Source: an uncultured Myxococcales bacterium (GTDB taxonomy: Bacteria; Myxococcota_A; UBA9042). Taken from it: 64,000 bases of DNA. Below are positions 36,552 through 62,927 of this stretch, in pieces. Numbering within the stretch: the stretch's first letter is position 1; the number at the start of each line of letters is the position of its first letter. The notes under the pieces are model-generated. The model ran no database searches. It was not told the origin of the DNA and saw only the letters and a program-made list of their open reading frames with translations. Both the position numbers and the translations under genes were made by a program. Where the stretch lies: positions 1 to 64,000 of the forward strand of contig CAIYBN010000038.1 of assembly GCA_903924465.1 (NCBI GenBank), read 5' to 3'.

Positions 36552-37607
36552 CTACTTGCCACACTTGAACGACGGTGTGTGCAGGCATTCGCCGGTCGGA
36601 AACACGCACTTGTCATCCGTGCACGCGTCGCCGTCGTTGCAATCCTTGGTCAGCCCGCTGCAGATGCTATTGGTGCACAGCGTGTTGTAGGTGCAGGGAT
36701 TGCCGTCGTCGCACGGGCCGCCGTCCGGGATCGGTACGTTGCTGCAGGCCGCGTTCTTGGGGTCACACGTGTCGGACGTGCACGGGTTGCCATCGTCACA
36801 GGTCTTCAGCGTGCCTTTGCAGGCGCCGTCGATGCAATTGTCAAAATTCGTGCAGACTTGGCCGTCGGAGCAGATCTGCGTCAAGTTGACGTGCTGGCAG
36901 CCGCCGGACCCCTCGCAGCTGTCCGCCGTGCACGCGTTGTCGTCGTCACAGAGGCCACCGCCCTTGCACGCGCCGAACGTGCACTTGTCGTCCGCCGTGC
37001 ACGGGTTGCCGTCGTCGCACGTCGGGCCGCTCAGCGCCACGGTGTGACAGCCCAGCGTGCCGCTGCAGTCTTCCTGGGTGCAAGGGTTGCCGTCGTCGCA
37101 AGCGGAGCCAAAGGCGAAACACGAGCCGTCGGTGCAGCGGTAGGCTGTGCACGGATCGCCGTCGCTGCAGGACTGATTGGTCGGGGCGTGCACGCATCCC
37201 GTGATCGGATCGCACGCGTCGAGGGTGCACGCGTTGCCGTCTGAACACTGAACTGCCGAACCAATGCACGCGCCTTTGAAGCAGGCGTCGTGGAGCGTGC
37301 AGATGTCGTTGTCGTCGCAGACAAAGCCGTTGGGCCCGGGCTGGAGGCGGCACTTGCCGTCCGTGCACACGCCGACACCGCATGGCGTATCGGTCTGGCA
37401 ATCGTTGTCGCCGGTACACGGTCTGCCTTCGATGGGGCTCGGCGGGGCGCTGTCCTGATCGTAGCTCGCCGCGTCACTGGCGTCGTGGTTCGCACCGTCC
37501 GCGCCATAACTGGTGTCCGCGCCGACACACGAGGTCAGAAGCGATGCGCAGGCCAAGCCGAGCGCCGCTGCGTGCCAGATTTCTCGTTGGGTCATTTGCG
37601 CGCTCAC
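36552..37607 (-). CDS. Cys-rich lipoprotein made of Dictyostelium-type CTDC repeats
   Basis: A 351-residue protein with lipobox LLTSC (Cys about 27), an Asp/Ala/Tyr-rich linker, and from about residue 60 to the end a chain of 20-25-residue repeats of the form CDDGNPCTxDxCxxxxGC. This is the Dictyostelium (slime mould) repeat pattern of prestalk extracellular proteins. Start: GTG at 37607, because GGGAGG sits six bases upstream of it. The longer ATG reading at 37625 would contain that ribosome site inside the gene. Likely disulfide-linked, rod-like and surface exposed; function unknown. Confidence 0.82.
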   Translation of the reverse strand: MSAQMTQREIWHAAALGLACASLLTSCVGADTSYGADGANHDASDAASYDQDSAPPSPIEGRPCTGDNDCQTDTPCGVGVCTDGKCRLQPGPNGFVCDDNDICTLHDACFKGACIGSAVQCSDGNACTLDACDPITGCVHAPTNQSCSDGDPCTAYRCTDGSCFAFGSACDDGNPCTQEDCSGTLGCHTVALSGPTCDDGNPCTADDKCTFGACKGGGLCDDDNACTADSCEGSGGCQHVNLTQICSDGQVCTNFDNCIDGACKGTLKTCDDGNPCTSDTCDPKNAACSNVPIPDGGPCDDGNPCTYNTLCTNSICSGLTKDCNDGDACTDDKCVFPTGECLHTPSFKCGK

Positions 37608-37765
37608 AGCATGCCTCCCAAACATAGCGTAGGCTGTTCCGCCACCCTCGTCGACGCGAGACTCACGAATCTAAATAATTGTGACGGAAATTCGAGTGCG
37701 GCAGGAACCAGGGACATTTGCGAAAAACTTGACCTGCCGGAAGCGATGGAATCCCGACGCGATCT

Positions 37766-44195: not shown

Positions 44196-45620
44196 TCACC
44201 AGACGTAGATGCCGATGCCGACCCACGGAAAATACGCCACGGTCGCGTTCTGGCGGCCGGCATCGGGGTTGGCGTCGAGAATCATCCAGGCCAGTGCGAA
44301 GTCGATGCGCGCCTTGACCCGGTCCAACGCGACGAAGCCAGCCGGCGCGTCGCCCGACGGCAGCCAGCGCACACCGGTCGTCCACATGGTGTTGGAAACC
44401 GGATAGCGCGGCAGCACCTCGATGGCCGCCGACCAACTGTTGCTGAACACCTGCTCCACGCCGAAGAAGCTTTGGAATTGCAAGGGCAAGTGCGGCAAGT
44501 CGGTTCCGCCCGTGCACGGCATCATCGCCGCGCCGCTGCTCGTGCCCCCGGCCGCTGCGCCGCCGCACGCCGCGGTAAAATGCGCCGATTGTGGCAAGAT
44601 CGCGTGGTTGTCCATGAGCCAGCCGCCAAGCGTGACCTGCGTGCCGGTGTTGAAATGTTTGCCTGCGGTCAGCGTGAACAGGTTGAACTGCGCGTTGGCG
44701 CCGGCAATGCCGACAAAGCCCGCGCCGCCCAAGCCGCCGCCGCCGATGCCGACGCCACCGCCGCCGCCGATCGCGGTGCCGAAGACGTCGAGCATGTCGT
44801 AGGAAATCGCGATGCCGGGTCGCGTGCGGGTCTCTTCCAGCGCCACGAACTTGACGCCGAGGTCGAAGACGCCGAACAGCGCGCCACCGCCGCCACCGCC
44901 AGCGACAAGGGCACCGGGCAAAGGCAGGGCGCCGCCGCCGATGGCCGGTATCGGCAGGCCGCCGAGCCACAGGTCGAGTTGCAAGCGGCGGGTGACGCCG
45001 TACGCCGCGCGCAGGAGCAACGCTTCATCGTCGCTGAGCACGAACGCGCCGTTGGGCACGGTGCGCGCCGTCGGCGTAAAGAACAGCCGCTCATCGGCGC
45101 CGCGTCGTGGATACCATTCGTCTTGTTGGACGACCATGGCTTTGCCCAATGCTTGGCCGAGATCCAAGCCCGCTTCGCCCGCCAAGTTGGCAGGTGAGCC
45201 AACCGCCTGCCAGCGCGAGGAGCCCAGCGTCGCGCCGCCATCCGGTCCACGCAACGTGGCTTCCACCGCCAGGAGGCCGCGCTCGGCGTCGCGAAAGCCG
45301 CCAAACGTCGCCAGTCCGCCAAGGATTTCATCGGTTGTCGTCGCTTCCGCCGCGACCGGTGTTTGTGCTTCGGCGATGTAGAGCTCCAACGTGTACGCCG
45401 GCTCCCCTTCATTCGCCATGCGCCAGCCCGCCCGTGGCAGCCCCACGCGCGCACCCGCCACGAGTTCCGCCGCCATGTCCGAACCCGGATCCGTCGCCAC
45501 CACGCGCACGGCCTTCACGTCGTTGTACGGCGCCAAGGGCGCCACGCGCGTCTGCCGCACCGCGCCGGTCGCGCAGCCAAGCAGCAGAGAAATCACTGTC
45601 GCGAGAAGCAGATGCCGCAT
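44196..45620 (-). CDS. Outer-membrane lipoprotein, Gly-rich, predicted beta-barrel-like C-half
   Basis: The 474-residue product has lipobox LLLGC (Cys16) and a soluble N-terminal domain to about 190. The C-terminal half of alternating hydrophobic residues has two long Gly tracts (about 245-255, 290-310). It ends YFPWVGIGIYVW, a terminal aromatic typical of outer-membrane beta-strands. A possible Cys pair is in the loop ACGGAA...MMPCTGG. No family is recognised. AAGGA overlaps the stop codon of the ABC-F gene, 9 bases upstream, so these two genes are translationally linked. Confidence 0.75.
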   Translation of the reverse strand: MRHLLLATVISLLLGCATGAVRQTRVAPLAPYNDVKAVRVVATDPGSDMAAELVAGARVGLPRAGWRMANEGEPAYTLELYIAEAQTPVAAEATTTDEILGGLATFGGFRDAERGLLAVEATLRGPDGGATLGSSRWQAVGSPANLAGEAGLDLGQALGKAMVVQQDEWYPRRGADERLFFTPTARTVPNGAFVLSDDEALLLRAAYGVTRRLQLDLWLGGLPIPAIGGGALPLPGALVAGGGGGGALFGVFDLGVKFVALEETRTRPGIAISYDMLDVFGTAIGGGGGVGIGGGGLGGAGFVGIAGANAQFNLFTLTAGKHFNTGTQVTLGGWLMDNHAILPQSAHFTAACGGAAAGGTSSGAAMMPCTGGTDLPHLPLQFQSFFGVEQVFSNSWSAAIEVLPRYPVSNTMWTTGVRWLPSGDAPAGFVALDRVKARIDFALAWMILDANPDAGRQNATVAYFPWVGIGIYVW

Positions 45621-45629
45621 TCGCTGTCC

Positions 45630-47648
45630 TTACGCCGCCGATTCGCTCAGCTCCGATTCAATCACTTCGATGCGCAGGGCCAAATCCTCCCACTTCGCCA
45701 TCGCCGCGTCGACCGCCGCCTGCAGCCCGGCTTGTTCAATCTGCAAGCTCCGCACGCGCTCGCCATCGGCGTATAGCTCCGGGTCCAACTGCAAGGTCGC
45801 GATGGCGGCCAGACGCGCCTCCGCTTGGGCGATCTCGGTCTCGGTCGCAGTCAGCCGTTCCCGCAGCGGCTTGGTGCGCCGGCCGAGTTCGTTGCGCCGC
45901 TCCGCTTCCTCGCGTTTGCGCGCCTTGTCGTCCAGCCGCGTCTCACCGGTGCCCAAGCCAGCGACCGGCGGCGCCGCCCGACCCGGCTCGCGATCCAGCA
46001 CCATTTCGCCGCGCAAAAGGCGCTCGATCACCGCCGGATCACCGCCGCTCTTGCGGTACAGGTAGGCATCGTAATCTCCCGGATACAGAGTCGTTTTACC
46101 ACCCGGTTGCACTTCCAACACGTGGGTCGCCACGGCGTTGATGAAATAGCGGTCGTGGCTCACCAGCACCGCCGTCCCCGGAAACGCCGCCAGCGCGTCT
46201 TCCAGCACTTCACGGCTGGTCAGGTCCAGGTGATTGGTTGGCTCGTCCAGCAGCAGCACATTCGGCTTGCGCAGCACCATCTTGGCCAGCGCCACGCGCG
46301 CTTTCTCGCCGCCCGACAGCACGCTGATTTTCTTGTCGACCATCTGTCCAGAAAAGCGCAACGAGCCCAGAAGTCCACGGACCGCCGAGATCGTCGCATC
46401 GGCGGACGCTGCCCGCCGCGCTTCGTCGATCACCGAACTGCCAGGGTCCAGCTGCTCCAGCTGGTGCTGGGCATAGTAGTCCGTCTTCACACCGGCGCCG
46501 TAGATCAGCTCGCCGCGCTGAATGTCCGTCACGCCCGCCAGAATCTTCAGCAGCGTCGACTTGCCTGCGCCGTTCGGCCCCACCAGCGCGACCTTGTCGC
46601 CGCGCCAAATCGTCGTGGTCAAGTCCGTGTAGACCACGTTGTCGCCCCACGCTTTGTCCACGTGCGACAGCCGAATGACTTCCTTGCCGGTTCGCGGCGG
46701 CTCGGCAAAGCGCAGCGTAATGCTGGCCACGTCGCCTTCCACATCGACGTTCTCCAGCTTTGCCAACATCTTCATGCGCGATTGCGCCTGCTTGGCCTTG
46801 CTGGCCTTGGCGCGAAAGCGATCGACAAAATGCTGCAAGTGCGCCCGCTGCTTGTCCACTTTCACTTTGGCGGCGTCCTGCTGTTCCAGCCGGAGCGCTT
46901 TGCCTTCCAGAAAATCCTCGTAGCCGCCAACGTGCTCGAACACGCCCTTCGGCGTCAGCTCCACGATGTGACTTGGCACGCGGTTCAGAAAATAGCGATC
47001 GTGGCTCACGGCGACGATGGCACCCTGGTACGCCTCGAGGAACGTTTCAAACCACGCCAGCGACTCAAAATCCAGGTGATTGGTCGGCTCGTCCAGCAGC
47101 AGCAAGTCGGGGGACAGGACCAGGAGCCGTGCCAGCGCCGCACGCATCCGCCAGCCACCGGACAGCGCGCCGGCGGGCAGCTCGGCTTGTTCCCGGGTAA
47201 AGCCCAGACCGCCCAGCGCTTGTTGCGCGCGCACCGGCACGTCCTCGCCGCCGAGACGCTCAAATCGCGTTTGCGCCGCGTCCAGATCCGCCAGCGCCTG
47301 TTCGGACTGCCCATAGGCGTGGTCGTTCGCCATGCGCTCGTGGAGGCGCGTCAGTGCGTCCTGCGCTTGCAGCCAACCCGGCATGCCGGACAGCACGGTC
47401 TGGAGCACCGAGCCTTCGCCGAACTCCTCCATTTCCTGCGCCAGAAAACCGATGGTGTACTGCTTGGGCCGCACGATGCCACCCGAATCTGCTGGCAGTT
47501 CGCCCGCCAGAATCCGCAGCAGCGTTGTCTTGCCGGCGCCATTCGGCCCGACCAAGCCATAGCAACATTTTGGCTTGATCTGCCACTGGATGTTGGCAAA
47601 AAGTGCCTGACGGCCAAAGGACTTGGCGATGCTCTGGAGCTGAAGCAT
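45630..47648 (-). CDS. ABC-F family ATPase
   Basis: A 672-residue protein with two ABC cassettes and no membrane segments. Walker A motifs are GPNGAGKTT (about 36) and GPNGAGKST. Signatures LSGGWRMR and LSGGEKAR, and two DEPTNHLD Walker B motifs, are present, joined by a charged helical linker (about 245-315). The C-terminal coiled coil is about 555-670. ABC-F proteins act on the ribosome as translation factors or confer antibiotic protection; the architecture is YheS/Uup-like and a resistance role cannot be inferred. It is 9 bases after the giant Cys-rich gene and 9 before the outer-membrane lipoprotein gene. Confidence 0.93.
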   Translation of the reverse strand: MLQLQSIAKSFGRQALFANIQWQIKPKCCYGLVGPNGAGKTTLLRILAGELPADSGGIVRPKQYTIGFLAQEMEEFGEGSVLQTVLSGMPGWLQAQDALTRLHERMANDHAYGQSEQALADLDAAQTRFERLGGEDVPVRAQQALGGLGFTREQAELPAGALSGGWRMRAALARLLVLSPDLLLLDEPTNHLDFESLAWFETFLEAYQGAIVAVSHDRYFLNRVPSHIVELTPKGVFEHVGGYEDFLEGKALRLEQQDAAKVKVDKQRAHLQHFVDRFRAKASKAKQAQSRMKMLAKLENVDVEGDVASITLRFAEPPRTGKEVIRLSHVDKAWGDNVVYTDLTTTIWRGDKVALVGPNGAGKSTLLKILAGVTDIQRGELIYGAGVKTDYYAQHQLEQLDPGSSVIDEARRAASADATISAVRGLLGSLRFSGQMVDKKISVLSGGEKARVALAKMVLRKPNVLLLDEPTNHLDLTSREVLEDALAAFPGTAVLVSHDRYFINAVATHVLEVQPGGKTTLYPGDYDAYLYRKSGGDPAVIERLLRGEMVLDREPGRAAPPVAGLGTGETRLDDKARKREEAERRNELGRRTKPLRERLTATETEIAQAEARLAAIATLQLDPELYADGERVRSLQIEQAGLQAAVDAAMAKWEDLALRIEVIESELSESAA

Positions 47649-47657
47649 GGGATATTT

Positions 47658-50600
47658 TTACGGCTTTTGCGGGACGCCCGGCGAATTGGCCGGGCAACTG
47701 CCCGTCGACTGCAGGCAATGGTTGCGCGGTGTGAGCGTCTCGGTCGAGACGAAGTTGTCCTTGTTGCTGTTGGTATCCCAGCCGGCACCGGCATAATACC
47801 ACGGCGAGAGGAGCGAAATGACGTCGTCGGCCATCAGACCCGGCGCAGGCAGCCGCTTGATCGCGCACGGCTGCGTGTTGTCCGGGCAACCGGGCGCGCC
47901 TGAGCCTTCGCCATACGCCCACATGAACGGATCGGGGCCCCAGCTCACGCGATCCAGCACCGTCGCCTGACCCGCGGCGTCGTAGCGAAGCAACCGCAAT
48001 GTGCCGGTATCCGGGTAGAGGCCCCACGTCAGCCCCGCGACGAAGTCCGGTCCAGGCAGCTTGCCGTCGTAGGTGCTCGGCGCGATGAGGAAATAGGAAT
48101 GGGCGTGGACGATGCCGGTCAGCGGCTTCTTGTTCACGTCGGAATCCGTGGCGTTGAGCAAGGTGCCGACCGTCGTGTAGCGGAACTTGATGTACAGGTT
48201 GTCCAGCACAATGTCCTGGTTGCTGCGGTTGTAGAGCACGATGTACTCGTTCGCCGCGCTGTTCAGGCTGCCGCCGCCTGGCGTGGTCGAATTGGCGCCT
48301 TGCGGGCTAATCTCTGCGAACACCAAGCCGGTCGCGTCGCATGCCGGCGTGGCGAGCGCGACGTCGCAGGAGTAGCCGCCGCCGGATGTTGAACCTTGCG
48401 TGTTGCAACTGCCGCCGCACGTGGGGTCCGCGCACGTGCCGCCGGTGGTGCCGGTGAAAGGACAGACGGAGCCAAATGCGCACGTGCCGCCGCATGCGGG
48501 TTCAAATTGCCCCGATGCCTTCGACTGCGCGCCGGGAACGTCCTGGTCGATCCAATCCTTGTCATCGCTGCCCGTGTCCTGACCGTTGCCGGCCAGACAA
48601 TGGCCGCCACCGGGTTTCAGGTCGGCCGCGTAATCAAACTGCGCCGACCGACGTTCCAGCGAGTCGCCTGGCGTCACGGCGGTGCCCACCTTGTAGGAAG
48701 CGTTGGTGCAATTGCTGAACGACAGCGCGCTGCCCCAGCCGACGGTGTCGATTTCCGAATCGGTGCGCGGATCCCACAGGCGCAGGGCGCTGCCGGCCGG
48801 ATCGAGCCCCAACGAACCCCAAACGAGGGCATCGACACCACCAGACGTCGCGGCATAGGCGGCTGTGCCAATGGCGAAGTAGCGGTGCGGAGGCAACGTC
48901 ACGGCAGCGGGCACCTGAAAGAGCACGGTCCACGGATCGCCGCATGCCGCGCTCGCCGACTTGAACTGGACGACGTATCCGGACATGTCGATCGCCTGGC
49001 TCGCGGCGTTGTACAACTCGATGAACTGCGCGTTGCTGTTGCTGGCGGCACCGGGCAGGATTTCCGAAAACAGCAAGCCCGGCACGTTCACGTTGCACAT
49101 TTGCTCGGCGCACGTCTTGCCGCTGCCACAGCCGATCGCGCACTTGGTGTCCGCGACGCAGGCCTCTGCAGCGGGCGTGTAATTGCAGGTTTGCAGTGGA
49201 AGCTCCGGACAATTGCCGCCGCACGCCGGCTCGTACACACCGGAAAGATGCGTCTGTGGATCCGCGGTCAGACGGATGACATAGTTGTCGTTCGGCATCG
49301 CGCCGCCGGTGTAGTCGTTGCCCGCCAGCCACTCCTTGTGGTGGTAGGCCATGCTGTCCGCCGTGCTCGTGGCTGCCGCGCGGCGCTCCAGCGATGAGGC
49401 CGACGCACTGCCCAAGCTGACCGGCGTCACGTCGACGCCCATGTCGGTGCAGCCGCCCGCATCCAGACACAAACGATCGTGCACCAAGCCGTTCACCGTG
49501 TCGCGCAAGCGCAGTTGCCCGACTGTGATCGTCACCGGCTGGTTGGCGACGGTAATTGGCACGCCGTTCGTGTCGACCTGCGCCGCGTGCTTGAAGTCCA
49601 GCGTCGGAGCGACGACATCGGCCGCGTTGCCGCCGATCACCGTCGCGCTGTGGGCCAGGAGCAGGTAGCCGTGCGCGCTGATCGCGCCCGCTGTGCCAGT
49701 GTCCGTCAGCGTGGTCCAGCCAACACCCGGTGCGGGATTGGCCTCCGCCACTTCGATGGCGTAGCTTGGAATGGCCACGTCATTCGCGGTGGGATTGTGA
49801 ATTTCGATCCAGTCATCGCTCGGGTCGTTGGCGACGCCGAGGTAGAGCTCGCTGATGAGGATCGGCTTGCTCGAGAACACGCAGGCCGGCACGAGGTCGT
49901 TGTTGCACTTGGCCAGGGGGCCGCAGTTGCCGTTCGGATCGTTGGTGTGGGTCGGGCCAGTTTTGGGATCGCATCCGTCCAGCGTGCACGGATTGCCGTC
50001 GTCGTAGGGAATCAACTTGCCGGCGCAGGTGCTGCTGACGCAAACGTCGTTGTTCGTGCAGGGGTTGCCGTCGTCGCACAGGTACGCGCCCAACGCGGAG
50101 TGGATGCAGGTGCCGGGTTGCGTCAACGGGTCGATGTTCGATGACCAGCAGGAGTCGGCCGTACAGGTGTTGCCGTCGTCGCAGTTTTTGGCGACGCCGC
50201 CCTGACAGACGCCGTCGGCGCAGGTTTGGCTGATCACGCACATGTCGCCGCCCTGGCACGGATTCGTGTTGGTCTTCTGCACGCAAGCGTATTTTTGCGT
50301 CAACGGGTCAACCGTCGTGCTCGTCGGGTCACACGTGCCGGTGTAGCAGCCGCCGACGTTGGGCACTTTGCAGTCCTTGGGCTTGCCCGATACGCATTTG
50401 CCAAAGATGCAGCTGTCCTGGCCGACGTTGGTGGAGCCATCGGCAGGGACTTTCGTGTCTTCGCCGGTGCAGGGGTTGTTGTCGGTGCACGCCGTTCCGT
50501 TGATCACGGGCCCGGATTTGCAGCCGGTCTTGGGGTCACAGGAGTCGAGCGTGCACGGGTTGCCGTCGTCGCAAACCTTGGGTGTGCCGCCGCAGACTCC

Positions 50601-52739
50601 GCCAGTGCACTGCGGCGTCAACTGACACACGTCGCTGAGTTTGCACGCTGTCCCGTCATCGACCGGCGTATGCACGGAGCAGCCGTCGGTGCCCAGTTTG
50701 GGGTCGCACGCGTTGTCGGTCGTGCAGTCGTTGCCGTCGTCGCACTTGTTGGTCGGGCCGCTGCAAACGCCGGCCGAACAGGTGTCGTTGCTGGTGCACC
50801 AATTGCCGTCAGAACACACCGTTCCATTGGGCATGTTGGGCTTCGCGCATGTACCCTTGGCCGGGTCGCATGCGTACGTGTGGCACGGCAGCTTGACCTC
50901 GGACGCGCACGGATCGACCGGCGGCGTTCCGGAGAAGATGCAGGTGTGCGTTTGCGTGGCGCAAACGTGCGGCGCTTGGCATTTGTTCGTGTTGAAACTG
51001 ACGCAGTCCGAATCCAGCGCGCAGTTGCAGTACGGCTTATTGGTCGAGGGGTCGATGGCGTTGCCCACGCACTTGCCCAGCGTGCACTTGTCCACTGGCG
51101 TGCAACTGTCGTTGTCATCGCACTTTGCGCCGTTGAACGGGTGCATGCAGCCGACGGCCGAGTCGCAGTAGTCCGTGGTGCACACATTGGCGTCGTCACA
51201 CACCGTCATGCTCGTTTTTGCGCATTTGCCATAGCCGTCGCAGTGGTCGCCCGTGGTGCAGACGTTGCCGTCGTTGCAGGTCGTGCCAGCGGCGGTGAAC
51301 ACGTAGTCGCATTGGCCCGTGTCTGGGTTGCACGTGTTGGTTCTGCACGTCCCGTTGCCGAGCGTCGAACATTTCACGATCGTCGCCGGGTCGACCACGC
51401 ACGTGTTCGAGCTGCTGCAGTGGTAGGTCCCCAAACAATTGCTGTTGAAACTCGCGCAGTCTGCGTCCACGACACAGCCACAGGCCGTTGGATTGAGCGC
51501 GCCGGTCGTGCACGATCCCCCGGCGCAGACGCCGCCCATGGTGCAGGGGTTGTGATCGTCGCACGGGACGGTGTTGGCAGTGAACGTGCACCCCTTGCTG
51601 TTCGTGGAAACGCAGGCGTCATCGGTGCAGTCATTGCCGTCGTTGCAGACGACCGGCGTCGAGGCGCAGACGCCATCGGTGCACAAGTCCGGGAATGTAC
51701 AGACATCGCCATCCGTGCAGTGGATCGTGTTGGGGCGATTGGCCGGCGCGCACTTGCCGGTCGTCGGGTCGCACGTGTTCACCTGGCATTGCAGGTTCAA
51801 GTTGGTGCACGGTGGCGTGACCGTAGTCGGGTCGAGCACGCAGAGGTTGTTGGTGCAAATGTGCTTGCCCAGGCAGAGGTTGGCGCTGTCCTGCACCGCG
51901 CAATCCGCGTCGACTTGGCACGCGCAAACATTCACAGTGCCCGGAATACACGCGACACCCGAGCACTTGTCGCCAACGGTGCAGGGATCGCCGTCGGCGT
52001 CGCACGGCGTGCCGGGTATGTTCGATTCGGACTTGCAGCCCCCGTTCGCCGTCAGCGCCTCGACGCAAGAATTGAGGGTGCAGGGATTTCCGTCCTCGCA
52101 ATCCTTCGGTGTGCCCTTGCAGGTACCAGCGGTGCAGGCGTCGTTCACGGTGCACTTTTTGCCGTCATCGCAGAGGCTGCCGTCTGGCGCGGCGCCGCTG
52201 GCCATGCAGAGACCACTGGCGGCGCCCGGTTCCACGAGGCACAGGAACTTTGGCGCGCATGAACTGGCAGCCACGACGCCGCAGTCCGCGTCCACTTTGC
52301 AGGAGATGCCCGCGTCCACTTCGACTTCCGCATCCTGCGCATCGGTGTCCGTGTCGTCCGCATCCACGCCCGCATCCACGTCGTCGGCAGCGTCGGTCAG
52401 GTCGGTTGCATCGTCGATGTCGTCCTGAATGTCTTCATCCGTCGGCTCGTCCTGCTCATCCGGACCCGTGTCGACTTCCTTCGCGTCCTTGCCTTTGACG
52501 TCGTGCACATCGAGCTTGACGTCATGCACGTCGACAATGTCCTGCACGTCATCTTGCACGTCCGGTTCATCGGTCGTTTGGTCGGTGTCGTCCTCGATGA
52601 TCGGATCCTCTTGCGCCGTATCCGCAGTCTTCTTGCCAAAGAGCGCCGACAGCTGCGAACAGCCCGTGCCCGCCAGCAGCAGCGCGATCATCCCAGAACT
52701 ACACAGCAAACGAAAAAGTGGCGAAGGAGATGGCCGCAT
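47658..52739 (-). CDS. Giant Cys-rich lipoprotein with Dictyostelium-type repeats and three lamin-tail-like domains
   Basis: The 1693-residue product has a lipoprotein signal (LLAGTGC, Cys about 27) and an extremely acidic Asp/Val/Thr linker (about 40-150). Many Cys-rich repeats of the CDDGNxCTxDxC type follow (about 150-945). Then three domains begin PILISELYLG (about 950), LLFSEILPGA (about 1220) and LVFAEISPQG (about 1470), each followed by an EIHN, ELYN or VLYN strand, the lamin-tail/LTD pattern. The start at 52739 has CGGAG 8 bases upstream. It heads an operon with the ABC-F ATPase and an outer-membrane lipoprotein. Probably a surface-attached rod; no enzymatic motif seen. Confidence 0.85.
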   Translation of the reverse strand: MRPSPSPLFRLLCSSGMIALLLAGTGCSQLSALFGKKTADTAQEDPIIEDDTDQTTDEPDVQDDVQDIVDVHDVKLDVHDVKGKDAKEVDTGPDEQDEPTDEDIQDDIDDATDLTDAADDVDAGVDADDTDTDAQDAEVEVDAGISCKVDADCGVVAASSCAPKFLCLVEPGAASGLCMASGAAPDGSLCDDGKKCTVNDACTAGTCKGTPKDCEDGNPCTLNSCVEALTANGGCKSESNIPGTPCDADGDPCTVGDKCSGVACIPGTVNVCACQVDADCAVQDSANLCLGKHICTNNLCVLDPTTVTPPCTNLNLQCQVNTCDPTTGKCAPANRPNTIHCTDGDVCTFPDLCTDGVCASTPVVCNDGNDCTDDACVSTNSKGCTFTANTVPCDDHNPCTMGGVCAGGSCTTGALNPTACGCVVDADCASFNSNCLGTYHCSSSNTCVVDPATIVKCSTLGNGTCRTNTCNPDTGQCDYVFTAAGTTCNDGNVCTTGDHCDGYGKCAKTSMTVCDDANVCTTDYCDSAVGCMHPFNGAKCDDNDSCTPVDKCTLGKCVGNAIDPSTNKPYCNCALDSDCVSFNTNKCQAPHVCATQTHTCIFSGTPPVDPCASEVKLPCHTYACDPAKGTCAKPNMPNGTVCSDGNWCTSNDTCSAGVCSGPTNKCDDGNDCTTDNACDPKLGTDGCSVHTPVDDGTACKLSDVCQLTPQCTGGVCGGTPKVCDDGNPCTLDSCDPKTGCKSGPVINGTACTDNNPCTGEDTKVPADGSTNVGQDSCIFGKCVSGKPKDCKVPNVGGCYTGTCDPTSTTVDPLTQKYACVQKTNTNPCQGGDMCVISQTCADGVCQGGVAKNCDDGNTCTADSCWSSNIDPLTQPGTCIHSALGAYLCDDGNPCTNNDVCVSSTCAGKLIPYDDGNPCTLDGCDPKTGPTHTNDPNGNCGPLAKCNNDLVPACVFSSKPILISELYLGVANDPSDDWIEIHNPTANDVAIPSYAIEVAEANPAPGVGWTTLTDTGTAGAISAHGYLLLAHSATVIGGNAADVVAPTLDFKHAAQVDTNGVPITVANQPVTITVGQLRLRDTVNGLVHDRLCLDAGGCTDMGVDVTPVSLGSASASSLERRAAATSTADSMAYHHKEWLAGNDYTGGAMPNDNYVIRLTADPQTHLSGVYEPACGGNCPELPLQTCNYTPAAEACVADTKCAIGCGSGKTCAEQMCNVNVPGLLFSEILPGAASNSNAQFIELYNAASQAIDMSGYVVQFKSASAACGDPWTVLFQVPAAVTLPPHRYFAIGTAAYAATSGGVDALVWGSLGLDPAGSALRLWDPRTDSEIDTVGWGSALSFSNCTNASYKVGTAVTPGDSLERRSAQFDYAADLKPGGGHCLAGNGQDTGSDDKDWIDQDVPGAQSKASGQFEPACGGTCAFGSVCPFTGTTGGTCADPTCGGSCNTQGSTSGGGYSCDVALATPACDATGLVFAEISPQGANSTTPGGGSLNSAANEYIVLYNRSNQDIVLDNLYIKFRYTTVGTLLNATDSDVNKKPLTGIVHAHSYFLIAPSTYDGKLPGPDFVAGLTWGLYPDTGTLRLLRYDAAGQATVLDRVSWGPDPFMWAYGEGSGAPGCPDNTQPCAIKRLPAPGLMADDVISLLSPWYYAGAGWDTNSNKDNFVSTETLTPRNHCLQSTGSCPANSPGVPQKP

Positions 52740-52822
52740 CGTGTCGCTCCGGGTTCTCACAGAGAGTCCAACCCGCGTTAGAATACCGGGTAGCCTGCCC
52801 TTGCGGCAAGGAGATTGCCCGG

Positions 52823-52950
52823 CTTGCGTCGAAACAGGCTGCGCCCGGCAAGTCGTCCGGCCGCGAAGACATGGAGCGGCAAGCACGAAGTGCGTGGGGC
52901 GGCGCGGCAGGAGGTGCGGAACGTCGCTTGCGTCGAAACAAGCTGCGCCC
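52823..52950. repeat. 24-bp direct repeat pair upstream of secA
   Basis: Copies at 52823-52846 and 52927-52950 share CTTGCGTCGAAACA and then RGCTGCGCCC, differing at one base, with a period of 104 bases. They lie in the 252-base divergent gap between the giant lipoprotein gene and secA. They could be regulatory or the remains of a small duplication. The rest of the gap shows no convincing gene. Confidence 0.7.
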
Positions 52951-52991
52951 TACCCTATGCGACCGCCCGCGGCTCGGGCCAGGACCAAACG

Positions 52992-55988
52992 ATGTGGCAG
53001 AAGTGGATCGCCAAGGCTTTTGGCACCAAAAATGATCGTGAATTGAAAAAGATCCGGCCACTGGTCGAGCAAATCAACTTGTTGGAGAGCGCCATTCAGG
53101 CGCTGGACGACGACGGATTGCGCGGCAAGACCGCTGAATTCAAGGCGAAATTGGCCAACGGCGCGACGCTGGACGACATTCTGCCGGAAGCGTTCGCGGT
53201 CACGCGCGAAGCGGCCAAACGGCGACTGGGCCAACGTCACTACGACGTGCAGCTCATCGGCGGCATCGCCTTGCACAAGGGCATGATCGCGGAAATGCGC
53301 ACTGGTGAAGGCAAAACGCTGGTTGCGACGTTGCCCGCGTACCTGAATGCGCTCGCGGGACGCGGCACGCACGTGGTGACCGTCAACGATTATCTGGCAC
53401 AGCGCGACTGCGAGTGGATGAGCCAAGTCTACAATTACCTGGGCCTGACCACCGGCGTGGTGACGACGTCGACGCCCAACGGCTGGCAGCGCCAGCAGGC
53501 GTACCGCGCGGACATTACCTACGGCCAGAACAACGAGCTCGGCTTTGATTATCTCCGCGACAACATGAAGTTTTCGCTGGACCAGTACGTGCACCGCTAT
53601 CTGCCCAACGCGACCGGCAAGGCGAACGAGAAGTTGCTGCCGTATGCGATCGTCGACGAAGTGGACTCGATCCTGATCGACGAAGCGCGCACGCCGCTCA
53701 TCATTTCCGGCAACACGGACGACAGTCCCGAGCCGTACATGAAGGCGAATGTCGTCGTGCAGCTGCTCAAGCGCGATCTGGACTACGCCATCGACGAAAA
53801 AGCGCACTCGGTGACGCTGACGGAAAGCGGCGTGGATCGCGTGGAAGCGCGGCTGAAAGTCGGCAATTTGTACGACGCCGAGAACATGCCGTGGCTGCAC
53901 TTCATCAACGCGGCGCTCAAGGCGCACACGCTGTACCGCAACGGCGTGAACTACCTGATTGAAGACGGCAAAGTCATCATCATCGACGAGCATACGGGCC
54001 GCAAAATGCCGGGCCGGCGTTGGTCGGATGGCATTCACCAGTCGATCGAGGCCAAGGAAGGCGTGCAGATCCAGCAGGAGACGCAGACGCTGGCGACGGT
54101 GACTTTCCAGAATTATTTCCGCATGTACGAAAAGCTGTGCGGCATGACCGGCACGGCGGAAACGGAAGCGGAGGAATTCGGCAAGATCTACAACCTGGAC
54201 GTGCTGGTCATTCCGACCAACAAGCCGCGCAAGCGCACCGACCACGACGACGTGATCTACAAGACCGAGCGCGCCAAGTTCAAGTCGGTGATCGGCGACA
54301 TTGCCCAAGCCAACGAGAAGGGCCAGCCGGTGCTCGTGGGCACGATTTCCGTCGAAAAGAGCGAGTTTTTGAGCGATTTGCTGACCGAGCGCGGCATCGA
54401 ACACAATGTGCTGAATGCCAAGCAGCACGCCCGCGAGGCAGAGATCGTGGCGCAGGCGGGCCGCTTCAAGGCGGTGACGATCTCGACCAACATGGCCGGT
54501 CGCGGTACGGATATTTTGCTCGGCGGCAATCCAGAACTGCTGGCACGGCAAGATGTTTTTGGCCCGGGCAAGGTGCATGAGCACTTTGACGAGACCAATC
54601 CGGAATATCTCGCCGGCCTGGAACGCTACCGCGGTGAGTGCGCGGATGAAAAGCAGCAGGTGCTCGGCGCGGGCGGCTTGTACATCATCGGCACGGAGCG
54701 GCACGAAAGTCGGCGGATTGACAACCAATTGCGTGGTCGTGCCGGTCGTCAGGGCGATCCGGGCGAGAGCAAGTTCTACCTCTCGCTGGACGACGACCTG
54801 ATGCGCGTGTTTGGCGGCGATCGCGTCCGCAAGATCATGGAATGGCTGAAGATTCCCGAAGACGAGCCGATCGTCGACCGGATGGTATCGAAGGCGATTG
54901 AAGGCGCGCAGAAACGCGTGGAAGGCCAGCACTTTGACGCCCGCAAGAGCGTGCTGGAATACGACGACGTGATGAACCTGCAGCGCAAGGCGATCTACGC
55001 GCTCAGGCGGCGGACGCTGGCGGTGGACAACACCCAGGCGCTGGTCAACGACGGGATTGCCAACGTCGTGCTGACGCTGGTGGACAAGTTCTGCCCGCAA
55101 GGCCAGAACCCGCTGGATTGGAACCTGGAGCCGCTGGAAGACGCGGTGTTTCAGCTGACGAACCTCGATTTGGATCTGGGCGAAGTGCAGCGCAACTACG
55201 ACGCACTGGTGCGTTCGCTGTCGGCTACCCTGAAAGACGAGTTCACGGAGCGGCGGGACGCGCAGATCAGCCGGATCGCCGACAGCATGACGCCGGAGCG
55301 CGGCGACGAGGATGACGAGAAGCAGGAAGTCGTGGACGAAACGGCGCTTGCGGCCACCGCCGAGAAAGAGTGGATCGTCGTCGAGCGGCAGCTGTACCTC
55401 GAGCAAATCGACACGCACTGGCGCGAACACCTGAAAATCATGGACGGTCTGAAGGAAGGCGTGTATCTGGAAGCGTATGCCCAGAAAGACCCGAAGCTGA
55501 TTTACAAGAAAGAGGGTTACGAGCTGTTTCGCCAGATGATCGAGCGGATTGAGGCGGATCTGACGCGCGCGCTGTTCCACGTGGAAGTGCAGGGGCGCCG
55601 GGAAATCGATCGGATGGCGGCGGAAGCGGAGGCCAAGCGCGTGCGTGCGGCCAAAGCGATGCGCGAGCAACACGACGTGGAGAGCCTGCACGACGAGGCG
55701 ACCCACGTGGGCGCGAAGCCGGCAGCGGCCGATCAGGCGCGGATGCAGGCGTTGGCGGCACGAAACCAGCAGCGGGCGCTTCAGGCGGCGCAGCAGCCGC
55801 AGTCGGAGGTGCCAGAAGGCGACGCGTTGCCTGAAGCACTGTCGCAGCCCGAGCAGCCGCAGAAAGTGGAAACGTACCGGCGCGAACGGCCGAAGATCGG
55901 TCGCAATGATCCGTGCTGGTGTGGCAGCGGCAAGAAGTACAAGAAGTGCCATGGGGTGAACGAGGAAGACGTCGGACCACCGGCCTGA
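52992..55988 (+). CDS. secA: Preprotein translocase ATPase SecA
   Basis: The 998-residue motor drives post-translational Sec export. Walker A is [11 protein letters not shown] (about 101-108), with motif [19 protein letters not shown]. The preprotein cross-linking domain, scaffold helix and C-terminal SEC-C zinc site ([18 protein letters not shown], about 970-990) are present. It is longer than E. coli SecA (901), with an acidic insert near 775-790 and an Ala/Gln-rich tail before the zinc site. The ATG at 52992 begins at the conserved N-terminus but has no clear ribosome site. The hutH gene follows 43 bases later. Confidence 0.97.
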
Positions 55989-58299: not shown

Positions 58300-59610
58300 A
58301 TGCACATTCCTGCATTGCCGCTGCTTTCACCGATCACACCGCACATGCCGCACAACGGCGTGGTGCTGCGGAACGTCCGGCTGAACGACGAACAGTGGCT
58401 CCAGCTGGATTTTGAGGACGACACCGCGTCAGCCACACCGTTTGCGGTGCGCATGACGCGTGCGCTCGCCGGCCAGCGCTGTTTTGTCGCCGCCGGACCG
58501 TTCCAGCTCACGCTCGACATTGGCGGCAAACCGGCCGCACACATCGCCCGATTCACCAAGGAACTGGCAGGGATCATCGCGCGCAACAGCCGTCGCCAAT
58601 CGCCGCAGACACTCGCCGCTCTGTTCGACCGGGTGAATCCCTACTTGGTCCGCGTCGGCTCGATCCCGGGGGAAAAACGCGTCGACTTGCTCGTCGGCCA
58701 CATGTGCAACGAACGCTGCGTGTTCTGCACGGATGTGAACCAACGCAGCCGCAAACGACTGCAGCCCGCGGCGGTCTGGAACGAACAATTGCGCGAGATG
58801 CGGGAGAAGGGCGCAGAGCACGTGCTTTTTGTCGGCAACGAACCGACCTTGCGCAACGATCTGCCGGAGATGATCGCGTACGCAAAGTCGGTGGGCTATC
58901 GCGACATCGAGCTCTCGACCAACGGCGTGCGTCTCTCGGATCGAGCCTATTTTCAAGAGCTTCTCGACGCAGGCATGACGAGCTTGTCGCTGTCGATCCA
59001 CGGTTATGACGAGGCGTCCGAGGGCATCAACACCGGACGGCCCGATTTGGTGAAACGGCGGCGGCAATGCTTGGAGAACTTTGCCGCGCTTGTGGGCGAT
59101 CATGCGGCGCAAACAACGCGCGGTGTGTACTTGACGACCGTGACCATCTTGACGCGCTACAATCTGGAACACCTCGCACGAATCGTCGCTTATCTGGACC
59201 AGTTCCATTGTATGTACATGAAGTTCTGCTATCCGTGGATCCTCGGGAGCGCAGCCGACAACTTCGCCCAGGTCGTCCCGAGCTATGTGGACGTCGTACA
59301 CGCACTTGAGCCCATTCGTGCGCGTCTGGAGGATCCCTATCAGGGCATCCATGTTGCGAACCTGCCGCCCTGCATACCGACAGGCTGGACTTCCGACCGT
59401 CAGGACCGCAAGCGCATCATCCTGCCGATCGGGCCGTCCGATACTGGCGGGACGCAGCTAATGCCGCGGACCAAGGTCGTTCCAATGGATCCGACCCTCG
59501 TCCACGCGCCGGTGTGTGCAACCTGCGTGATGAAGACCATGTGCAATGGCGTGTCTGCGCGGTATCTGGAGCACTATGGCAGCGCGGGCTTGGCGCCGAT
59601 TCTCGCGTAG
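58300..59610 (+). CDS. Radical SAM enzyme with C-terminal Cys cluster
   Basis: The 436-residue product has the radical SAM Cx3Cx2C motif at Cys136, Cys140 and Cys143 (HMCNERCVFC), followed by the GNEPTL (GGE-like) and ELSTNGVRLS strands. A 130-residue N-terminal region of mixed strands precedes the barrel and is not recognised. The C-terminal VCATCVMKTMCNGV has three or four cysteines that could hold an auxiliary 4Fe-4S cluster in SPASM/twitch style. No precursor-peptide gene is obvious next to it. The substrate is unknown. The ATG at 58300 lacks a clear ribosome site. Confidence 0.85.
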   Translation: MHIPALPLLSPITPHMPHNGVVLRNVRLNDEQWLQLDFEDDTASATPFAVRMTRALAGQRCFVAAGPFQLTLDIGGKPAAHIARFTKELAGIIARNSRRQSPQTLAALFDRVNPYLVRVGSIPGEKRVDLLVGHMCNERCVFCTDVNQRSRKRLQPAAVWNEQLREMREKGAEHVLFVGNEPTLRNDLPEMIAYAKSVGYRDIELSTNGVRLSDRAYFQELLDAGMTSLSLSIHGYDEASEGINTGRPDLVKRRRQCLENFAALVGDHAAQTTRGVYLTTVTILTRYNLEHLARIVAYLDQFHCMYMKFCYPWILGSAADNFAQVVPSYVDVVHALEPIRARLEDPYQGIHVANLPPCIPTGWTSDRQDRKRIILPIGPSDTGGTQLMPRTKVVPMDPTLVHAPVCATCVMKTMCNGVSARYLEHYGSAGLAPILA

Positions 59611-59629: not shown

Positions 59630-62600
59630 TCAGTTTGCCTTCCACGTCACCGTGTAGCCACCGCACATCGACGCGGCCGCAGCGTTCTTGGGGAATACCT
59701 GGATCGTCACGGTGCCGCCGTCGTCGCCCATGCCGAGGAAGCTGCACGTGTTGTTGAGCCGCACGTGTTCGCTGGCGGTTCCGCTGTTGCTGGAGCAGCA
59801 GCCCGACTCGCCGTTGGGACCGCTCGCAGCGTAGGTGCCAGCGTCGCACGCGACCACGCCGCTGCCGCTTTTGCCGCCCGTGCAGCGGAACCAGGCGCAC
59901 AAGTCGTAATCCGCGGCGAGGCCGGTGATGCCGACGTCGGGGTAGATGGAACAACCGGTGAGGTCGCTCGCCGTGAAGTGGTAGTAGTCGACATCCTGAG
60001 CCGGACTGATGCTCGCGCTCAGCGTGCTTGAGCCGGCGCAGTCACTCTTGTCTGTGATCGCGGTGCCATCAGGGGTGTTGTTGTTCTCATACTGGTCGAA
60101 AATGCCTTGGCCTTTGCATGCCCCGCCGACGCACTTGTCGGACTGCGTGCAAGCGGAATTGTCGTTGCACGCGCCGCCGTCGGGTGTCGGCGCGATCTGG
60201 CATTTGCCTCCCGCGCAATAGCTGAGGTTGCACGGGTCGCCGGTGGGCGCACAGGAGATTTCTGTTCCCGTGCATTTGCCGGCGCCGTCGCAGTGGTCAT
60301 TCAAAGTGCACGAGTCGCCATCGCTGCACGCTGCGGTCGTTGGAAAGGAACTCAAGATGCAGCCCGTGGTCGCGGGATCGCACACGCCGTTCGCGCAGGC
60401 ACCCGACAGGTTGCTGCAGTTCACGACGGTGCCGACGCACAGGCCGTTGGCGCATTGGTCATTGAAAGTGCAGCCGTTGCCATCGTCGCAGGCCACGCTG
60501 CCGACCTTGGGCGTCGCGATGCAGGCACCGTCCTTGCACGAGCCCGCGCCACACACGCTGTTCAGGCCGCTGCAATCGAGGACCGTGCCCGCGCACTTGT
60601 TGCCCGCGCAGGCGTCGTTCACCGTGCACGGGTTGCCGTCATCGCAGGTGCCGACTTTGGGCACCGCGCTGCACGTGCCGCCGACGCAGGTCCCGGTCGC
60701 ACAGACCGCGTCGAACGGGCTGCAGTCCTTGGGCGTGCCGATGCACTGGCCGGCGGAGCAGTGGTCGGATGCGGTGCAGACATCGCCGTCGTCGCACGGG
60801 CCGGACTTGGGTGTGATGACGCACGCGCCGCTGGCCTTGTCGCACGCGGCCGTGCCGCAGGTGGAGCTGAGCGAAGCGCAGTCCTTGGGGCCCCCGCCCT
60901 GACAAATGCCGCCGCTGCACGTCTCGCCGACGGTGCACAGGTTGCCATCCTCGCAGGGCTTGCCCGGAGCGGCGCTGAAGCCGACCTGGCTCGTGGCGGG
61001 AATGCACTGCTGGCATGGGTCGGTCGGGCTGCTTTGGCCGTCCGCATAGCAGACGCCGGCGATTTCGCATTTGCCTGAAGCGATCGTGTGGCCACAGCCG
61101 CCCTGCTTGGTACAGATGTCGACGGTGCATGGGTCGCCGTCGTCGGGGCAACTCTGTCCGGTCAACGACGCCAAGTGAACACAAACGCCGTTCTGGCAAG
61201 TGTCGCTCGTGCACGGCAAGCCGTCGTCGGCGCATGTGGCGCCGATCGCCTTCGCTGGGTGCTGGCAGGTGCCGGTCTGGCACACATCGTCCGTGCAGGG
61301 CTTGCCATCGTCGGCGCACGGACTGCCGGACACAAGCGCGGGATGGGTGCACTGTCCGCCAGCGCACAAGTCGTTCGTGCAGGCGACGCCGTCGTCGGCA
61401 CAAGCTGTTTCCGTTGCTGCGGCCGGGTGCTGACAGGCGCCCGCCTTGCACAGGTCGTCGGTACAGACGTTGTTGTCGTCCGCGCACGTCACGTCTCCCG
61501 CGACCGGGACGTGCGCGCACGCGCTGGCCTTGCAGATATCCTGCGTGCAAAGGTTGTTGTCATCGGCGCACGCCGGATCAAAGGGGTCGTCGGTGTGCAT
61601 GCAGACGCCCGCCAGACAGCCGTCCAGCGTGCAGGCGTTGCCGTCGTCCTGGCAGGTTGCGCCGTCGCCCAGCGGCGTGTGTCCGCAAGCGCCCGCCAGG
61701 CACACATCAACCGTGCAGGAGTTGCCGTCGTCCGTGCAGGCCTCACCGTTGTTCGTATGCGTGCAGCCACCCGCGGTGTCGCAGCCGTCCGTTGTGCAGG
61801 GATTGCCGTCGTCGCACTGGGTCGATTGGCCTACGCACTTGCCTTTGACACAGAGGTCGCTGTCCGTGCAGACGCTGCCGTCGTCGCAGACTGCGCCGCT
61901 CTCGGGAATCTGCCCGCAGGAGCCGTCCGAGCCACAAATGCCGGTTGTGCACGGATTGCCGTCGTCGCACATGCCTTCGTCGGCAGTGCCATCACAGTTG
62001 TCGTCCAGGCCGTTGCAAATTTCGGCGACGGGCGTGGCCGCATCGCACAGGGCGACGCCGTCCTTGCAACTCGCGATGGTGCCAACGCACGTGCCCGCGG
62101 CGTTGCTGTTGCTGCACGCGGTGTTGCTGCCCAGATCGTCGGTCTTGCCGTTGCAGTCGTCGTCCAGGTTGTTGCACGTCTCCGACACCGGAGTTGGCGC
62201 GTCGCACGGTGTGAGTCCGGTGGCTGTGCACGTGCGGACGCCCGTGCACGTGCCCGCGCTGGTGACATGGGTGCACGGGACTGTCAACGCTTGGGCCACG
62301 GCCTCCGGGCTGCAGCCGCATTCGCCGTTGTTCGGTCGGCATTGCGCGACCGTCTGCCCGGTCGCTGAGTCCACGACTGCCGAGCAGGTAAAGCCATCCG
62401 GGCAGGTCTTTGGATTGCTGAGGCTGCAAGAAGAGCCGCAGAAACTTCCCTTTTCGCCATCGGGAATGCACAGGTTGTTGCTGCCAGCCGTGGTCTGGCA
62501 GAGGGCGGAGTCCGTGCACGGCATGCACAAATGGCCAAAAGCGCTGCTGCCGTTGTCAGCTGGCGCCGCGTCTGCTGGCGTGTCATCGACCAGTGCAGCG

Positions 62601-62824
62601 TCGGTGCCCGCCGCAAAATCCGTCAGAGCCGTGGCATCTGAGCCGCTGGGCACGTCCAGTTTCTTCACGTCGGTCGTGAACAGCAAGCCGTCGGATGGGT
62701 CGAGCGTGTCCGCCGCTGCACTGTTGCCAGTCCCGTCGGTTGTCGGATTCGAGCAGGCCATGCACGCAGCCGCCAGCCATGCCCAGCCGCGCAAGTTCTT
62801 GCGCCCCGCAAGCAGTTTTCCCAT
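59630..62824 (-). CDS. Large Cys-rich lipoprotein with MopE-like motifs, Dictyostelium-type repeats and PPC-like C-terminus
   Basis: About 1064 residues. The signal sequence ends in ACMACSN (probable lipidation at the second Cys, lipobox atypical), followed by an Asp/Ala-rich linker to about 95. Two MopE-like copper-binding motifs, ETCNNLDDDCNGKTDD (about 213) and EICNGLDDNCDGTADEG (about 265), come before the repeats. About 280-905 is a chain of CADDGxxCTxDxCxxGxC and CDDGNxCT repeats. About 911-1064 is a beta-rich domain resembling bacterial pre-peptidase C-terminal (PPC) domains (YENNNTPDGTA, DYYHFTAS). GGAGGGG lies 9 bases before the ATG. Function unknown; likely surface-exposed. Confidence 0.82.
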   Translation of the reverse strand: MGKLLAGRKNLRGWAWLAAACMACSNPTTDGTGNSAAADTLDPSDGLLFTTDVKKLDVPSGSDATALTDFAAGTDAALVDDTPADAAPADNGSSAFGHLCMPCTDSALCQTTAGSNNLCIPDGEKGSFCGSSCSLSNPKTCPDGFTCSAVVDSATGQTVAQCRPNNGECGCSPEAVAQALTVPCTHVTSAGTCTGVRTCTATGLTPCDAPTPVSETCNNLDDDCNGKTDDLGSNTACSNSNAAGTCVGTIASCKDGVALCDAATPVAEICNGLDDNCDGTADEGMCDDGNPCTTGICGSDGSCGQIPESGAVCDDGSVCTDSDLCVKGKCVGQSTQCDDGNPCTTDGCDTAGGCTHTNNGEACTDDGNSCTVDVCLAGACGHTPLGDGATCQDDGNACTLDGCLAGVCMHTDDPFDPACADDNNLCTQDICKASACAHVPVAGDVTCADDNNVCTDDLCKAGACQHPAAATETACADDGVACTNDLCAGGQCTHPALVSGSPCADDGKPCTDDVCQTGTCQHPAKAIGATCADDGLPCTSDTCQNGVCVHLASLTGQSCPDDGDPCTVDICTKQGGCGHTIASGKCEIAGVCYADGQSSPTDPCQQCIPATSQVGFSAAPGKPCEDGNLCTVGETCSGGICQGGGPKDCASLSSTCGTAACDKASGACVITPKSGPCDDGDVCTASDHCSAGQCIGTPKDCSPFDAVCATGTCVGGTCSAVPKVGTCDDGNPCTVNDACAGNKCAGTVLDCSGLNSVCGAGSCKDGACIATPKVGSVACDDGNGCTFNDQCANGLCVGTVVNCSNLSGACANGVCDPATTGCILSSFPTTAACSDGDSCTLNDHCDGAGKCTGTEISCAPTGDPCNLSYCAGGKCQIAPTPDGGACNDNSACTQSDKCVGGACKGQGIFDQYENNNTPDGTAITDKSDCAGSSTLSASISPAQDVDYYHFTASDLTGCSIYPDVGITGLAADYDLCAWFRCTGGKSGSGVVACDAGTYAASGPNGESGCCSSNSGTASEHVRLNNTCSFLGMGDDGGTVTIQVFPKNAAAASMCGGYTVTWKAN

Positions 62825-62927
62825 TTCTTTCCCCTCCTGCCAGACACCCCAGCCTTGCAGCATGACAGATCTTGACGACCACAGCCATCGATTGGAACTG
62901 CATGTTTGCGTGGGAATTGGCGCGGTG

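Follow-up and report, generated by a model that had tools for sequence, protein, structure and literature searches.

The closest described systems come from amoebae and from bacteria. In Dictyostelium, ecmA, ecmB, psiA and psiF encode exported, Cys-rich proteins that carry CTDC repeats (Pfam PF00526) and belong to multigene families of exposed proteins; they are secreted, may carry a PA14 domain, and number 14 in D. discoideum (PMC4931340). Lamin-tail domains (LTD, PF00932) are found in exported bacterial LTD proteins (ExeM-like nucleases, Deinococcus-Thermus and haloarchaeal proteins), some of which bear a lipobox (PMC5118699). In Myxococcus, the surface receptor TraA combines a recognition domain with a Cys-rich repeat region, and its sorting depends on a C-terminal MYXO-CTERM tag and its function on a partner protein, TraB (PMC13184517). 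A fourth protein to be considered is the heavy subunit of the Entamoeba Gal/GalNAc lectin, an adhesin.

The protein studied here is encoded in a 64,000-nucleotide stretch of DNA from an uncultured Myxococcales bacterium (the window) and will be called the CTDC-3xLTD protein. It shares the repeat type, the predicted export, the high Cys content and membership in a multigene family with the Dictyostelium proteins, but differs from them in its bacterial lipobox, its acidic linker and its LTD heads. In contrast to the bacterial LTD nucleases it has no enzymatic domain, and its three LTDs are carried on a CTDC stalk. It is stalked like TraA, but has an N-terminal lipid attachment site, CTDC repeats and LTD heads. 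Membership in a TraA-type system was rejected because the C-terminus (...PGVPQKP) has no transmembrane or MYXO-CTERM tag and, by inspection, no TraB-type gene is adjacent. The modules are known; their combination is new and conserved, and it lies inside an unexpectedly large bacterial CTDC family.

Gene and domain organization

The gene is an intact frame in the window sequence, running on the minus strand from an ATG at 52739 to a stop at 47658. The order of domains in the 1693-residue product is lipobox Cys27, Asp-rich linker, about 810 residues of Cys-rich repeats and three lamin-tail-domain copies:

47658..52739, minus: whole gene, lipoprotein of 1693 aa with CTDC stalk and three LTDs (frame, Pfam, orthologues in L040/L041)
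52659..52739, minus: predicted lipoprotein signal peptide, residues 1-27, lipobox AGTGC (sequence motif only; kept in L040/L041)
52302..52658, minus: acidic Cys-free linker, residues 28-146, 38% D+E (composition)
49875..52301, minus: Cys-rich stalk with CTDC repeats, residues 147-955, 112 Cys (PF00526, Cys spacing, Cys conservation, AF2 of a 300-aa part)
49224..49868, minus: LTD copy 1, approximately residues 958-1172 (PF00932 26.3 bits singly; homologous to copy 2)
48495..49082, minus: LTD copy 2, approximately residues 1220-1415 (PF00932 55.2 bits singly)
47661..48332, minus: LTD copy 3, approximately residues 1470-1693 (PF00932 27.3 bits singly; homologous to copy 2)

The lipobox motif, LLLAGTGC27, which would give a mature N-terminus of CSQLSAL, is conserved in L040 and L041 and supports the lipoprotein assignment of the first-pass annotation. 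Scored on the whole protein, PF00932 reached 93.9 bits (E=1e-26, three stretches, cut-off 34.3) and PF00526 reached 44.2 bits (E=1.6e-11, six stretches, cut-off 27), so that both families have the HMM support on which that annotation had made its proposal of about 800 residues of CTDC repeats and three LTD-type domains depend. All of the LTD motifs quoted there were found: ISELYLG (962-968) with DWIEIHN, FSEILPG (1224-1230) with FIELYN, and FAEISPQ (1474-1480) with EYIVLYN. When the copies were scored singly, copy 2 passed the PF00932 cut-off, whereas copies 1 and 3 were sub-threshold. Alignment scores were 116 for copies 1 and 2 (shuffled maximum 70) and 97 for copies 2 and 3 (shuffled maximum 52), and only the pair of copies 1 and 3 did not rise above the shuffled chance level. 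Judged by these alignments, copies 1 and 3, though sub-threshold singly, are detectably homologous to copy 2. A phmmer search against PDB gave no match, and an AF2 model of the LTD region, made from an alignment of just three rows, had a pLDDT of only 28 and was discarded.

Cys-rich composition may inflate weak matches, and the repeats and domains might be taken for an artefact of low complexity or chance. We regard the probability of this as negligible: the HMM cut-offs were passed, and the Cys-rich region contains 14 copies of the CTDC-type motif, whereas none of 1000 shuffles had more than three, a control that excludes chance as the source of the repeats.

The NCBIfam models gave a weak similarity to ExeM across LTD2 (E=0.017). 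LTDs are known in exported prokaryotic nucleases and in proteins of DNA metabolism, and DNA or membrane binding has been proposed for them (PMC4486849, PMC5118699), so the heads might attach to extracellular DNA, either as a nutrient source or to hold a biofilm together. This is improbable, as neither the protein nor the adjacent genes contain a nuclease domain, the LTD has no established nucleic-acid motif, and many of the family-invariant positions are acidic.

Orthologues and conservation of the stalk cysteines

With a profile of the LTD part, a full-length orthologue was detected in 19 of the 22 genomes searched in the same family; two others had partial matches only and one had none. Among 30 genomes from other families of the class, no full-length match was obtained. 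On this profile evidence the gene marks one family within the class, in which it is fixed beside an ABC-F gene and, where the flank is readable, secA. The orthologues retain all regions at 31-65% identity. Two of them (G015:C321:6785-8950 and G146:C943:36229-38385) have one TAG stop inside the matched LTD stretch and are either disrupted copies or assembly errors.

Cys makes up 13.8% of residues 146-955, and the stalk has a super-repeat of about 148 residues, as seen from the CxC pairs at 272/274, 420/422 and 571/573. The stalk cysteines are 100% conserved within the genus and 99.5% within the family, and the latter value rules out a low-complexity or chance artefact. For stalk residues other than C, D, G and N, conservation was 44% in the genus and 18% in the family; family-wide values for Asp and Gly were 65% and 56%. 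In full-length orthologues the length of the stalk is nearly constant (774-837 residues) and its cysteines number 112, 114 or 118; a truncated copy has 92, and every one of these counts is even. Because these counts come from relatives they represent few independent events, and paralogues offer a more independent test. Among the CTDC lipoproteins of the same genome that have a clear linker, the mature cysteine count was even in 41 of 48 (p=3e-7), and without the linker filter in 50 of 58. The mature CTDC-3xLTD protein has an odd number, 137, owing to the 25 cysteines of its C-terminal part. With their conserved Cys register and even counts, the repeats behave as expected of a disulfide-bonded rod, the bonds themselves being predicted.

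An AF2 model of two super-repeats (the 300-aa part, alignment of 26 rows) had a pLDDT of 79 and a pTM of 0.36, the low pTM being as for an elongated flexible chain. The best solved match of this model in Foldseek was the heavy chain of the Entamoeba Gal/GalNAc lectin (E=3e-5), with a TM-score of just 0.18 to a eukaryotic protein, which indicates a local fold likeness that could partly reflect Cys-rich composition. The model and the match are consistent with an extended Cys-rich stalk but do not prove it.

The genome also encodes a fusion of VKOR and DsbA (Thioredoxin_4) that ends in an FGE-sulfatase-type domain (G000:C40:61547; L135:1261-3420, plus strand) and could make disulfides. As a disulfide-forming enzyme it is unusual, and it may be connected with the Cys-rich proteome.

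Genomic neighborhood

The neighbouring genes and the other CTDC genes of the window are the following:

45630..47648, minus: ABC-F family ATPase, 672 aa, 9 bp downstream of the CTDC-3xLTD gene (Pfam ABC_tran, ABC_tran_Xtn, ABC_tran_CTD)
44196..45620, minus: predicted lipoprotein/outer-membrane protein, 474 aa, 9 bp past the ABC-F gene (neighbouring ORF; L040/L041 synteny)
52815..55988, plus: secA-like gene, divergent upstream neighbour, listed ORF start too early (from sequence, not HMM)
59630..62863, minus: second CTDC-containing predicted lipoprotein, 1077 aa (motifs; PF00526 25.6 bits, E=1e-5, just below the cut-off of 27)
36552..37625, minus: third CTDC lipoprotein, 357 aa, a headless stalk (PF00526 95 bits)

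The same strand, the 9-bp gaps and the synteny bear out an operon-like arrangement with the ABC-F ATPase and the predicted outer-membrane lipoprotein, as had been proposed earlier. The whole block, including the secA-like gene, is kept in L040 and L041, which are MAGs of uncultured Myxococcales. The 474-aa lipoprotein, which had no Pfam match, is syntenic and 83% identical there. Since the neighbours are 83-94% identical in the two MAGs and the CTDC-3xLTD protein is 61-63% identical over its full length, the latter changes faster than the genes around it. An ABC-F gene adjoins the orthologue in most loci with flanks (15 of 16 checked; the named exceptions among L047-L060 are L054 and L055), and within the subset of loci with a readable flank secA is syntenic in L047-L051, L053 and L055.

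The 9-bp gap and the adjacency across the family raise the question whether the co-oriented ATPase aids ribosomes on the acidic, repetitive nascent chains of the CTDC-3xLTD and related proteins. EttA, an ABC-F protein, relieves pausing at acidic residues (PMC11282234), and 38% of the linker is acidic. We give this idea little credence: the EttA effect requires acidic residues within the first 30, whereas the acidic linker begins near residue 40; the ATPase scores best with the YheS-type model, though well under the cut-off of that model, and not with EttA; and the conserved neighbourhood may be incidental, as for secA. Near another CTDC lipoprotein gene, in L078 and L134 (G000:C102), there is a Uup-like ABC-F gene, a proximity that may be due to chance, given so many CTDC genes.

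Elsewhere in the window, the gene at 3549-5435 (plus strand) encodes a Cys-rich lipoprotein with 82 mature cysteines and an acidic Asp/Thr linker; it had no match in Pfam and is probably a relative that has diverged. Next to the second CTDC gene lies one for a radical SAM protein whose C-terminus is Cys-rich (58300-59610, plus strand).

The CTDC family in the genome, class and phylum

Among the best 150 profile matches, at least 65 distinct ORFs of the 5.8-Mb genome had PF00526 scores above the cut-off, as compared with the 14 CTDC proteins of D. discoideum. In the loci examined, 74 ORFs contained three or more CTDC motifs and together span about 299 kb (5.1% of the genome); 72 of these surpassed every one of 200 shuffled versions of themselves, and a recognisable lipobox was present in 58. 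Such counts are lower bounds, derived from profile matches and individual loci. When 189 genomes of the phylum were searched, CTDC matches were obtained in all 36 genomes of the same class (77-2412 loose first-look candidates each) and in 70 of 153 genomes of other classes, mostly in few copies; none was found in 14 control genomes. As all 36 sampled genomes of the class carry the repeat, the CTDC-3xLTD protein belongs to a family of modular stalked lipoproteins that extends across the class. The slime-mould-type label that the repeats had been given is correct as to repeat type, but its hint of exotic borrowing is misleading for a module that ranks among the most abundant in genome and class. 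A bacterial CTDC family was not described in the literature found in a limited search, where the family is seldom named.

The tails and inserts of the CTDC proteins of this genome (86 segments) contained Lcl_C (nine segments, the commonest module), Cu-binding_MopE (six), Laminin_G_3 (six), RCC1/NHL propellers (five), LTD (four), FG-GAP_2 (three), FGE-sulfatase (three), and single SUEL and C-type lectin modules. Given this variety, the most fitting reading of the family is that of a modular display stalk. LTD arrays also recur in the genome: G000:C103:50229-52862, C8:90679-93261 and C144:303245-305212 have three to four LTD matches each, in open frames of 1132, 1412 and 1013 aa.

Whether these proteins constitute a hugely amplified, class-wide system of lipid-anchored disulfide rods, around which the cell surface of the class is built and which display swapped lectin, propeller, FG-GAP and lamin-tail heads, with the CTDC-3xLTD protein as a fixed, family-defining member, is in our estimate an evenly balanced question. 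Such a system would parallel, in bacteria, the modular proteins that serve extracellular adhesion in amoebae and animals. A repeat named for slime-mould prestalk proteins is far commoner in these little-known, uncultured myxobacteria of lakes than it is in Dictyostelium, and in them it resembles a general surface stalk. If it is one, the bacteria have many exchangeable binding proteins on their exterior, which could plausibly underlie prey contact, attachment or kin interactions. The abundance of the repeat also raises the question whether the Cys-rich adhesion stalks of amoebae and bacteria reflect shared ancestry or convergence.

Cellular location and possible role

With moderate confidence we lean to the view that the CTDC-3xLTD protein is an outer-membrane lipoprotein consisting of a lipid anchor, a flexible acidic linker, a rigid disulfide rod and three outward LTD binding heads. 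The protein would reach the outer membrane and flip to the surface, with the lipid-modified Cys27 serving as anchor and the linker spacing the rod from the membrane. Oxidative folding of the Cys-rich region outside the cytoplasm would yield a long rigid rod with about 56 disulfide bonds, which may present the three LTDs, putatively Ig-like domains, for binding to surfaces, matrix polymers or other cells. An adhesin or matrix-binding role is most likely, the surface location and the ligand being putative. The surface fibre suggested by the first-pass annotation is not supported: no polymerisation, donor-strand or sortase features were noticed in domain scans of the protein, and an anchored stalk of near-fixed length fits better.

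The lipid anchor alone could permit an orientation toward the periplasm, the default for lipoproteins, where the protein might serve as a structural spacer or in envelope maintenance. Such a role would account for the conservation and the fixed place beside secA, and would suit the near-constant stalk length and the stable neighbourhood. It is nevertheless unlikely, as the paralogues bear modules usually seen in exterior proteins (lectin, laminin-G, FG-GAP and propeller), the faster divergence is frequent in surface proteins, and a rod of 800 residues plus linker probably exceeds the width of the periplasm. We know of no surface export signal for this myxobacterial group.

In M. xanthus, Lys at position +2 directs lipoproteins to the inner membrane and Ala at +7 to the matrix (PMC3222651). 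The CTDC-3xLTD protein has Ser+2 and Leu+7, so by these rules, which come from a different class, neither location is predicted. This bears on a further reading, by which the protein is released or vesicular and forms part of the extracellular matrix instead of being a cell-bound adhesin. The Dictyostelium CTDC proteins are matrix proteins (PMC4931340) and some myxobacterial lipoproteins do reach the matrix (PMC3222651), but with the Ala+7 signal missing, and a lipid anchor here as against secreted amoebal proteins, we consider this reading quite doubtful.

Calcium binding by the linker, another early suggestion, was dropped, since acidic linkers occur throughout the CTDC family. In the proteins of this genome the post-anchor linker usually lacks Cys and is acidic (median length 72 residues, D+E 23%), and in most linker-bearing orthologues D+E amounts to 26-37%, with lower values in L058 and L059. 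Judged from composition, a function special to this acidic linker is unlikely, and the linkers probably act as a general spacer after the anchor.
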